From: Gemmatimonadota bacterium
GTDB lineage: Bacteria; Gemmatimonadota; Gemmatimonadetes; Gemmatimonadales; Gemmatimonadaceae
Assembly (NCBI GenBank): GCA_947471365.1
Contig: CANIWQ010000016.1
Coordinates: forward strand, 1-36,151
Length of the DNA stretch: 36,151 nt
Reading direction: 5' to 3'
Program-made: the position numbers and the translations under genes
The notes under the pieces: generated by a model
Seen by the model: only the letters and a program-made list of their open reading frames with translations
Database searches by the model: none
What the model was told of the DNA's origin: nothing
Shown: positions 741-4,289 of the stretch, in pieces
How positions within the stretch are numbered: the stretch's first letter is position 1
Layout of the letters: each line of letters begins with the position of its first letter

Positions 741-1307
741 TTATCTCCCCACCCCCAATGCATCCGCCATCCGATTGATGTAGTTGAACCACGACGCAAT
801 CATCGTGATCTGCAGGATGCCGGTATCATCAAAGCCGTGCGCGCGCAAACCATCCAGCGTCGCTGGCGACACCCGCGTGGCGTCGACGGTGATCTCCACC
901 GCGTACGCGAGCATCGCGCGCTCCTTCTCGCTCATGGGCGCCGTCTGCCATTCGCCGCGCAGTAGCGCGTCGGGAAGCGTGTCGTCCTGTACCACCATAC
1001 GCAGAAACTCTGCGTGCGAGTCCATTCAATACCGGCAGTTGTTCGTGACGGAGACTACCGTCGCAATCATCTCATGATGCCGGCGTTCGAGTGGGAGGTC
1101 GGGCGCCATGGCGGCGCCGAATGTTGAGAAGGCGTGCTGCAACGCGGCCGGAATCAGGCTGTGCGACGCCAGAATCTTTTCTTCCGCGGGCACGCTGGGC
1201 TGCGTCCCCTGCCCATACTCCTTGGGGTAGAGCTTGGCCTGGGCCAGAAAGGCATCGCGCAACGGGCCGGGAGTCGCCATTGGGTCGAACGTCTTGATCC
1301 AAGTCAT
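741..1307 (-). CDS. AhpD-like peroxidase-related protein, probable selenoprotein (in-frame TGA = Sec94)
   Basis: Read through one TGA (1028-1026), this frame gives 188 residues matching the uncharacterised peroxidase-related branch of the AhpD/carboxymuconolactone decarboxylase family over its whole length. The N-terminal part runs MTWIKTFDP... to [10 protein letters not shown]. The part after the TGA runs [10 protein letters not shown]... to [16 protein letters not shown], the usual family end. In relatives the redox motif reads roughly N-x-C-x-Y-C-x-x-x-H; here it is N90-C91-R-Y-[TGA94]-M-D-S-H98, so the TGA replaces exactly the second Cys. A perfect 7-bp hairpin with a GUU loop follows at SECIS distance (separate entry). 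Both halves are in the same frame with no missing residues, which argues against decay. The expected role is thiol/selenol peroxide or disulfide chemistry in the cytosol. The start at 1307 fits family length, though its ribosome site is weak. Ordinary gene calling would split this into two ORFs (1352-1026 and 1025-741). Confidence 0.85.
999..1015 (-). promoter_or_regulatory. Candidate bacterial SECIS hairpin
   Basis: On the minus-strand mRNA the bases ACGCAGA (1015-1009), GUU (1008-1006) and UCUGCGU (1005-999) form a perfect 7-bp stem with a three-base loop. The loop begins with G followed by U. That G is the 18th base after the UGA at 1028-1026. Known bacterial SECIS elements lie inside the coding region just after the UGA, with a short stem and a G (often GU) at the start of the apical loop, at about this distance, as in E. 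coli fdhF. The extra bulged U of the E. coli element is not seen. This is recognition by eye, not folding. Confidence 0.7.
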
Positions 1308-1406: not shown

Positions 1407-4289
1407 GTGTCTCTCGTTCTCGCCGCCTTTCTGCTGCAGGCCGCCAGTGCTGACTCCTCCGCACTGCGCGCCGTTCGCACCCCCACCTACGCGCCCGACG
1501 GACGGGTAGCGGTGAGTAGCGATGGCGGACTGTTTTTGCGCCGCACATCAGGTGCGTGGACGCGTCTCTCCACGAGCAGCGCCTGGGACCGTGACCCCGC
1601 CTTCACGCGCGACGGATCGGCGATCGTCTTTTCGTCTGATCGCTCGGGCAACTGGGATCTCTGGCGACTGCGCGTCACGGCCGACGGCGGCGCCGGAGAA
1701 CCCGAACGTGTGACCACCTCCGCTGCCGACGAAAGCGCGCCCACGACCGCGCCCGATGGCAGCATTGCATTTGTGCGGGGGCGTGGCGCATCGGCCCGCA
1801 TCTGGATTCGCACCACCGATGGCAACGAACGCCGACTCGATGATCGTGAGAACACGCAAACCGCGCCGCGCTTTTCTCCCGATGGTCAGCGTGTGGCGTA
1901 TATCGTGACGAGCGAGAATGTGCGCCGCGTGATCGTGCGCGGCGTGCAGAACGGACGCGAGACCACCGTCAACGCTGATCGGGCCGCCGAGCGACTTGCG
2001 TGGTCGCCGACGGGTGATCGCGTGGCGTTCTCGACGCGCGCCGGTGTGTTTGTGTCGCCCGCCGACGGACGCTACACGAACATTGCCTCTACGCATCACG
2101 GCGACATCGCCTGGTCGCCCGACGGCGCGACGGTCGCCATTGCCGAATACGACGAACCCTCCGTTGGCTATAACGGCGACCCAGACCGACTCGGTGAGCG
2201 CGTGGCCGCTGAGCGATTTGGCGCCACCGACAAACTGTTCTTCGTCGCCGCACCCGTAGCGCCCGACGCGAATCTCGCGGAACAACGCGTGACGGCCGCC
2301 GATGATCGCGCTACGCGAAACGCTGCGGCCTATGATCGCGTGTGGGAGCGTTCCACCAAGTTGTACTTCAGCGCAGCGGATGCAACAACGCGCCGCGCGC
2401 CGTGGGATGCGGTTCGCACCAAGCATCGCGGGGAAGCTCTTGCCGCGCGAAACGACGATGAACTTCAGCGCGCCATCTGGGCGATGCTCCGCGAGCGGCC
2501 GCCGCTCAAGGCCACCGCCACCGGCCGCGCTGCCGTGAGCAGTGCGCACCCCGTGGCCACCGAAGCGGGACTCGAGATGTTCCGTGCCGGCGGCAACGCC
2601 GTTGATGCGGCTGTCGCCGTGAGTTTTGCATTGGGCGTGGTAGAACCCGATGCCAGCGGCGTCGGCGGCTACGGTGAAATGGTAGTGACACTCAAGGGGA
2701 TGGAACGACCGACGCTCATTGAGTTCATGAGCCGTGTGCCCGAGGCTGCGTCGCTCGCCAATACATCGTTGCTGCAGAACGGGCGTTATCCGAGTGATGG
2801 CCCGGCATTGGTGAATGTGCCGGGGACGGTGGCCGGGATGTATCTCGCATGGAAGAGCTACGGCAGCCACAAGCTCGAGTGGAAAGATCTCATTGCGCCT
2901 GCCCTACGCGCCGCGCGCAATGGCTACGCGGTGAGCGAAGGACTCGCCACTACGCTGGCCACCGAGCGTGAGCACTACGCCAAGTATGAGGGAAGCCGCG
3001 CACTGTTCTTCAAGGACGGCCACCCGCTCGTGGCTGGTGACACCGTGCGCAACAGCGGACTCGCGTGGGTGCTCGAACAAATCGCTGCCAACGGCGCTGA
3101 CGGATTTTACAAAGGCGCCGTGGCGGACAAATGGGTGACCGACCTTCGCGCGCACGGCAACGTGATGACCGGCAACGATCTCTCGCGCTACTACGCGGTG
3201 GAACGCGCGCCCGTGGCGGGACAGTATCGCGGCTACACTCTCTGGTCGAGCACCCCGCCCGTGAGTGGTGGCGCCGAACTCGCGGCGCGCATGAACTTGA
3301 TGGAACAGTTCGCCACGCCCAAGCCGTATCCCGATGACGCGGCGACACTCAACGCCGCGCTCACCGCGTGGTACTTGGTGCCGAGCTCGCGCAATAAGAT
3401 TGCGGACCCCGGAATGTGGCCCGTAGATGTGGCGAGCATTATCAATCGCGACACGGCGGTGGCGCGCTGGAAGTGTTACGACGCCGACCGTGCGATTCGC
3501 CCGTCGGATTTCCGCGGCGATACGCTCGCTTGCTTAGTACGCAACACGAAGACGGACAGCGCGAAGTCCGCACCTGATCGCAATGATGCACCGGATGCTG
3601 CGCTCGCTGAATGCGCCGCGCCCGATCACGCGCGCGAAATCAGCGCGTGCCATTCTGCGGGCACCACAGCATTCACCGTGGCAGACAACGACGGCAATGT
3701 CGTGGCCGTCACGCAAACGCTCGGCACCTGGGGCGGCAATTTTTACGTCACGCCGGGACTTGGCTTTCTCTCAAACGATAAACTCACGAGCTACGGCACC
3801 GACTCCACGCAATACGGACATCGCCTGCCATTCGCGCGACACGGCAGCACACTCGCACCGACCATCGTATTCAAGGGAAAGAGGCCTGTGTTCGCTGTAG
3901 GTGCGGCGGGCAACTCGTGGATTACGTCGGCGGTGTTTCAGGCGTTGCTGGGTGCGCTCGACTATGGCTACGACGCGCAACGTGCGCTCGAGCTTCCGCG
4001 CTTTCTCCCCGGAGGGGCGGGCGGAGGAGCGGGAGGTGGGGGGCGCGCGGGCGGAGCAGGTGGTCGTGCCGCGTCAGCGGCCACCGACGCGCGCTTTAAC
4101 ATTCAAATTGAAGACGGCTTCTCGCCCGACGTCATCAAACGTCTCCGCGAACTCGGTTACGACTTTACCGTGGTGTCGCTGCGTGGTGAACTGCGCGAGG
4201 GCTACGGCGCGGCCATCACGATTGACGGCAAGAGAGTGACGGCCGGTGCGGACCCGCGGCGCGCGGGCGCCGCGGGTGCCGTGCCGTGA
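1407..4289 (+). CDS. Gamma-glutamyltransferase fused to an N-terminal WD40-like beta-propeller
   Basis: A 960-residue exported protein. It starts at GTG 1407 with GGAG at 1397-1400. Residues 1-15 (MSLVLAAFLLQAASA) look like a short signal peptide with no basic n-region. Residues about 25-270 contain repeats of the PD40/TolB kind (APDGRVAV, TRDGSAIVFSSDRSGNWDLW, SPDGQRVAYI, SPTGDRVAFS, SPDGATVAIA). From about residue 370 the sequence is gamma-glutamyltransferase: SSAHPVATEAGLEMFRAGGNA, VEPDASGVGGYGEM, and the self-cleavage/nucleophile site at GTTAFTVADNDGN, where Thr753 is the likely catalytic N-terminal Thr of the small subunit. GGTs cleave or transfer gamma-glutamyl groups (glutathione and related peptides) in the periplasm. 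A Gly/Ala-rich insert (coded around 4011-4075) interrupts the small subunit. The propeller fusion is unusual. Confidence 0.88.
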   Translation: MSLVLAAFLLQAASADSSALRAVRTPTYAPDGRVAVSSDGGLFLRRTSGAWTRLSTSSAWDRDPAFTRDGSAIVFSSDRSGNWDLWRLRVTADGGAGEPERVTTSAADESAPTTAPDGSIAFVRGRGASARIWIRTTDGNERRLDDRENTQTAPRFSPDGQRVAYIVTSENVRRVIVRGVQNGRETTVNADRAAERLAWSPTGDRVAFSTRAGVFVSPADGRYTNIASTHHGDIAWSPDGATVAIAEYDEPSVGYNGDPDRLGERVAAERFGATDKLFFVAAPVAPDANLAEQRVTAADDRATRNAAAYDRVWERSTKLYFSAADATTRRAPWDAVRTKHRGEALAARNDDELQRAIWAMLRERPPLKATATGRAAVSSAHPVATEAGLEMFRAGGNAVDAAVAVSFALGVVEPDASGVGGYGEMVVTLKGMERPTLIEFMSRVPEAASLANTSLLQNGRYPSDGPALVNVPGTVAGMYLAWKSYGSHKLEWKDLIAPALRAARNGYAVSEGLATTLATEREHYAKYEGSRALFFKDGHPLVAGDTVRNSGLAWVLEQIAANGADGFYKGAVADKWVTDLRAHGNVMTGNDLSRYYAVERAPVAGQYRGYTLWSSTPPVSGGAELAARMNLMEQFATPKPYPDDAATLNAALTAWYLVPSSRNKIADPGMWPVDVASIINRDTAVARWKCYDADRAIRPSDFRGDTLACLVRNTKTDSAKSAPDRNDAPDAALAECAAPDHAREISACHSAGTTAFTVADNDGNVVAVTQTLGTWGGNFYVTPGLGFLSNDKLTSYGTDSTQYGHRLPFARHGSTLAPTIVFKGKRPVFAVGAAGNSWITSAVFQALLGALDYGYDAQRALELPRFLPGGAGGGAGGGGRAGGAGGRAASAATDARFNIQIEDGFSPDVIKRLRELGYDFTVVSLRGELREGYGAAITIDGKRVTAGADPRRAGAAGAVP

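Follow-up and report, generated by a model that had tools for sequence, protein, structure and literature searches.

The minus strand of the window, the whole stretch of 36,151 nucleotides analysed here, carries at positions 741–1307 a gene for an AhpD-like, peroxidase-related enzyme of family TIGR01926. An in-frame TGA at 1026–1028 (codon 94) is very probably read as selenocysteine (Sec). The read-through frame, 1307–744, encodes 188 residues from MTWIK to GVGR, with this TGA as its sole internal stop, and ends at a TAA (743–741). This confirms the proposal of the earlier note that two minus-strand frames form one AhpD-like protein. A plain list of open reading frames divides the gene at the TGA, and the finding mends this split gene model. 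The GTG at 1352, at which that list starts the frame, was rejected in favour of the ATG at 1307; the resulting N-terminus MTWIK is kept in orthologues. The redox site reads C91-R-Y-U94-M-D-S-H98, the TGA replacing the second Cys of the C-x-x-C...H motif. This assignment, too, is borne out, since homologues align a Cys at this position and the Cys-containing relatives have TGC or TGT there. Cys91 (codon at 1035–1037), the presumed resolving partner of Sec94, is invariant in the Sec orthologues. His98 (1014–1016) and Glu79 (1071–1073, 12 residues before Cys91), the equivalents of the proton-relay residues His137 and Glu118 of AhpD, are invariant in all 19 aligned orthologues.

The protein falls within the CMD/AhpD superfamily. 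It scores 99 to 99.9 bits against TIGR01926 (cut-off 81.8 bits), the higher value being obtained with Cys in place of Sec, and is the only match to this family in its own genome. Two further families of the superfamily are classified by NCBI as possible selenoproteins, but the protein scores well below their cut-offs: 50.5 versus 175 bits for NF041238 (AhpD-related (seleno)protein CFYUT) and 32.7 versus 310 bits for NF053654 (YciW-related (seleno)protein). The catalytic C-x-x-C/U-x3-H motif with its upstream Glu is present, and Glu79, Cys91, Tyr93, Sec94 and His98 are spaced as in the proton relay of AhpD, for which the pattern E-x11-C-x-x-C-x3-H has been described (PMC3141380).

An AlphaFold2 model with Cys substituted for Sec has a pLDDT of 82.3, with weak regions at residues 1–3 and 45–51. 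The best structural matches of this predicted model are peroxidase-related proteins, led by 3c1l (Z 18.7) and 2pfx (Z 17.7). Together with 2oyo, 2prr and 6k40 they have in common with the model its fold and the C-x-x-C...H site, and Sec94 aligns with their second Cys; they differ in having Cys instead of Sec and are 27–31% identical in the structural alignments. AhpD from M. tuberculosis (1gu9, Z 10.9) has the same relay spacing, but its identity in the structural alignment is 10% and its His132 corresponds to Tyr93 here, as in PA0269 from P. aeruginosa. Judging from this homology, peroxide or disulfide chemistry of the Sec protein is quite probable, and it is likely that the enzyme acts as a peroxidase or disulfide reductase boosted by Sec. 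The same selenoprotein could also serve another chemistry, e.g. reductive dehalogenation with the help of a thiol, of the kind performed by Bmp8; this debrominase has the AhpD fold and is itself among the fold matches (6ohi, Z 14.3, 18% identity). The peroxidase-related proteins match more closely, however (Z 16.7–18.7), the E-C-Y-U-H relay is that of AhpD-like proteins and no operon partner points to a substrate. A different chemistry is improbable.

A hairpin at 1015–999 (minus strand) begins ten bases past the TGA. Its stem ACGCAGA/UCUGCGU consists of seven Watson-Crick pairs and closes a loop at 1008–1006, in line with the 7-bp hairpin and GUU loop of the earlier note. For bacterial SECIS elements (bSECIS) a loop of 3–9 nt, a stem of 4–16 bp, a G as first or second base of the loop, a spacing of 16–37 nt and an MFE of at most -7.5 are required (PMC13188914). 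With a loop of 3 nt, a stem of 7 bp, G as the first loop base, 17 nt between TGA and loop and -9.0 kcal/mol, the hairpin lies within all of these limits. When the codons of the gene are put in random order, 0.64% of the orders yield a hairpin with the same form, spacing and G in the loop. In single-sequence folding, a check suggested earlier, the 54-nt hairpin stretch is no more stable than its shuffles (z 0.23). Folding energy alone therefore proves nothing. The Rfam model SECIS_1 (RF00031) had no match in the genome and was likewise silent in all control genomes.

It is comparative evidence, namely conservation, codon invariance and covariation at the sequence level, that lifts the hairpin above chance. 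The hairpin codons encode the conserved residues H-A-E-F-L-R and, consequently, part of the conservation is at the protein level, a point addressed by a test on codons. An alignment of 23 distinct Sec orthologues has 54 degenerate columns in which the residue never varies, yet only six of them are invariant in their codon as well, and these are the consecutive codons 98–103 that form the hairpin. Outside the hairpin, residue-invariant degenerate columns average 3.1 codons. In a divergent clade the stem is preserved although its bases differ (CACGGAGCGGGTCTCCGT). Stem pair 17–27 is C-G in 15 sequences and G-C or G-U in 10, with a compensatory flip from C-G to G-C in the divergent clade. The observed covariation score exceeds all 500 shuffles, a count which is inflated by kinship among the sequences and driven by the contrast between the two clades.

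The genome also encodes the machinery for Sec insertion. The source assembly is a draft of 3.31 Mb in 222 contigs with 98.8% completeness. The search proposed by the earlier note recovered every component: selA (525.9 bits), selB (299 bits, or 334.1 bits with the C-terminal part), tRNA-Sec (77.7 bits) and selD, the latter seen only as two pieces (321.5 and 102.6 bits), each at a contig end, on C101 and C42. These pieces lie at L017:6-722 and L018:1501-1836, and the one on C42 adjoins tRNA-Sec; the two contigs are probably neighbours in the genome. Within the phylum, selA is above the cut-off in 280 of 395 Gemmatimonadota genomes, and selenium-dependent redox enzymes are common there.

By protein search, relatives of the gene were found in 142 of the 395 Gemmatimonadota genomes, with an internal TGA in all but three among the matches listed. 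Many Gemmatimonadota genomes, G102, G181, G226 and G287 among them, have two distinct relatives with a TGA and thereby paralogous selenoproteins of this family. Of 43 fetched loci, 39 have the C-x-x-x...H motif and all 39 have TGA at the second Cys; they stem from Gemmatimonadota and Acidobacteriota, and some represent the same genome fetched twice. Another, separately assembled genome of the genus, 98% identical and with retained synteny, has the identical TGA. As anticipated, related genomes thus have TGA at this codon, or TGC/TGT in the Cys relatives. On both sides of the TGA dN/dS is about 0.12–0.20 (against orthologue L024, about 0.12 before and 0.16 after). Both halves are thus under purifying selection, which indicates that the part downstream of the TGA is translated and constrained.

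These data bear on three further explanations of the interrupted frame. TGC and TGT are one base away from TGA and the assembly is a draft in many contigs, so that a Cys codon might have decayed in a pseudogene or been misread. Conservation of the same TGA in the separate assembly and in 39 of 39 loci refutes this reading, and dN/dS far below 1 on either side is equally at odds with it; its probability is negligible. Secondly, the ATG at 1025 directly follows the TGA in the window and could start a second polypeptide if the TGA were a true stop, either as a separate gene or by translational reinitiation. Only 4 of 25 orthologues, however, have ATG next to the TGA, the others mostly ATT or ATC, which counts against a split gene. 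Moreover, such a split would cut the C-x-x-U site and leave the hairpin without a role, and we consider it hardly credible. Finally, a general code change or a suppressor that inserts Cys, Trp or some other residue at UGA would account for read-through as such, but this is extremely unlikely, since several orthologues (L027, L029, L053 and others) end with TGA as a true stop, a SECIS element and the full Sec machinery are present, and genomes having only the uninterrupted form lack selA.

Selenocysteine at position 94 is further supported by the relatives in which Cys takes its place. Four orthologues from Armatimonadota and Planctomycetota (54–59% identity) have TGT or TGC at the position of codon 94, and their codons in the hairpin region resemble neither the Sec form nor one another. 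Three remoter homologues from Gemmatimonadota have TGC, again with non-matching hairpin codons. In the former four (L031:3001-3567, L032:383-949, L034:3001-3567 and L036:3001-3567) the first Cys sits one residue earlier, the sequence N-C-T-[FS]-Y-C forming a CxxxC motif instead of CxxU or CxxC.

At the threshold used, 19 genomes have a relative but no selA. Ten of these have the uninterrupted form only (codons were read for L067–L069), and nine of the ten lack tRNA-Sec, the tenth, G262, having a marginal match of 50.1 bits. The remaining nine have the TGA form, and in eight of them tRNA-Sec is found; selA is therefore probably absent merely from the assembly. In the ninth (G348, 86% complete) neither selA nor tRNA-Sec was found, a case that speaks against the Sec reading. 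As a whole, the distribution links the TGA form with the Sec machinery.

Two changes between Sec and Cys are needed on the tree. With midpoint rooting, the Cys clade from Armatimonadota and Planctomycetota is nested, at modest support (92/87 and 90/77), within the Sec clade. Tentatively, one might picture a phylum-wide, strongly maintained Sec lineage of peroxidase-related proteins in Gemmatimonadota with a nearly frozen SECIS, from which the Armatimonadota/Planctomycetota Cys lineage arose by exchange of Sec for Cys along with the shift from CxxU to CxxxC, although this scenario is rather doubtful. If correct, it would represent a natural experiment on how the loss of selenium is compensated. 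The matched Sec and Cys forms offer a means of testing what selenium buys the AhpD-like fold.

Taken together, the Sec machinery, the conserved TGA and hairpin, the covarying stem, the Cys homologues devoid of the hairpin codons and the co-occurrence with selA and tRNA-Sec bear out the earlier reading of the gene as a selenoprotein. There is little doubt that UGA94 specifies selenocysteine, and sequence data could hardly make a stronger case for its insertion. In the cell, the hairpin 10 nt past UGA94 would recruit SelB with Sec-tRNA(Sec), resulting in insertion of Sec and read-through to the full-length protein with the predicted AhpD fold. The pair C91-x-x-U94 would form an AhpD-like proton-relay site with Glu79, Tyr93 and His98. 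Presumably, the selenolate of Sec94 attacks the substrate and becomes oxidised, Cys91 resolves it as a selenenylsulfide, and a cellular thiol reductant may then recycle the latter.

AhpD-like selenoproteins with a CxxU motif have been catalogued since 2005 (PMC1088965, PMC2398784), in agreement with the earlier statement that such proteins had been reported. A 2026 review lists an "AhpD-like protein, TIGR01926, CxxU" among the known selenoproteins (PMC13188914), credits it to the 2005 Sargasso Sea survey (PMC1088965) and cites MCB9421940.1 as an example. Thus, the idea that Sec forms within the peroxidase-related subgroup might not yet have been described is not borne out. The listed protein belongs to the same NCBI family and has the same C-x-x-U motif as ours, a likeness judged by family and motif; Gemmatimonadota are absent from the text of the review. 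Among the titles and abstracts listed by a search on Gemmatimonadota and selenoproteins there was no paper on this gene. Possibly new are the breadth of occurrence in Gemmatimonadota, the frozen SECIS and the Cys orthologues with the shifted CxxxC motif.

The selenoprotein gene is a single-gene locus. No match to a promoter or terminator was found near it, and the neighbourhoods of orthologues, compared as lists of open reading frames, revealed no evident conserved partner beyond close relatives. In the window the gene is flanked by an AsnC-type regulator and a fusion of a TolB propeller with a gamma-glutamyltransferase, and this order of genes is retained in the nearest relatives. The fusion is a single open reading frame of 960 residues (1407–4289), comprising a TolB/PD40 beta-propeller and a gamma-glutamyltransferase domain. 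Between the stop codon of the selenoprotein and the AsnC-type regulator gene lies a tandem array (629–715) of 12.4 copies of the 7-bp unit CGGTTAT with 95% matches.
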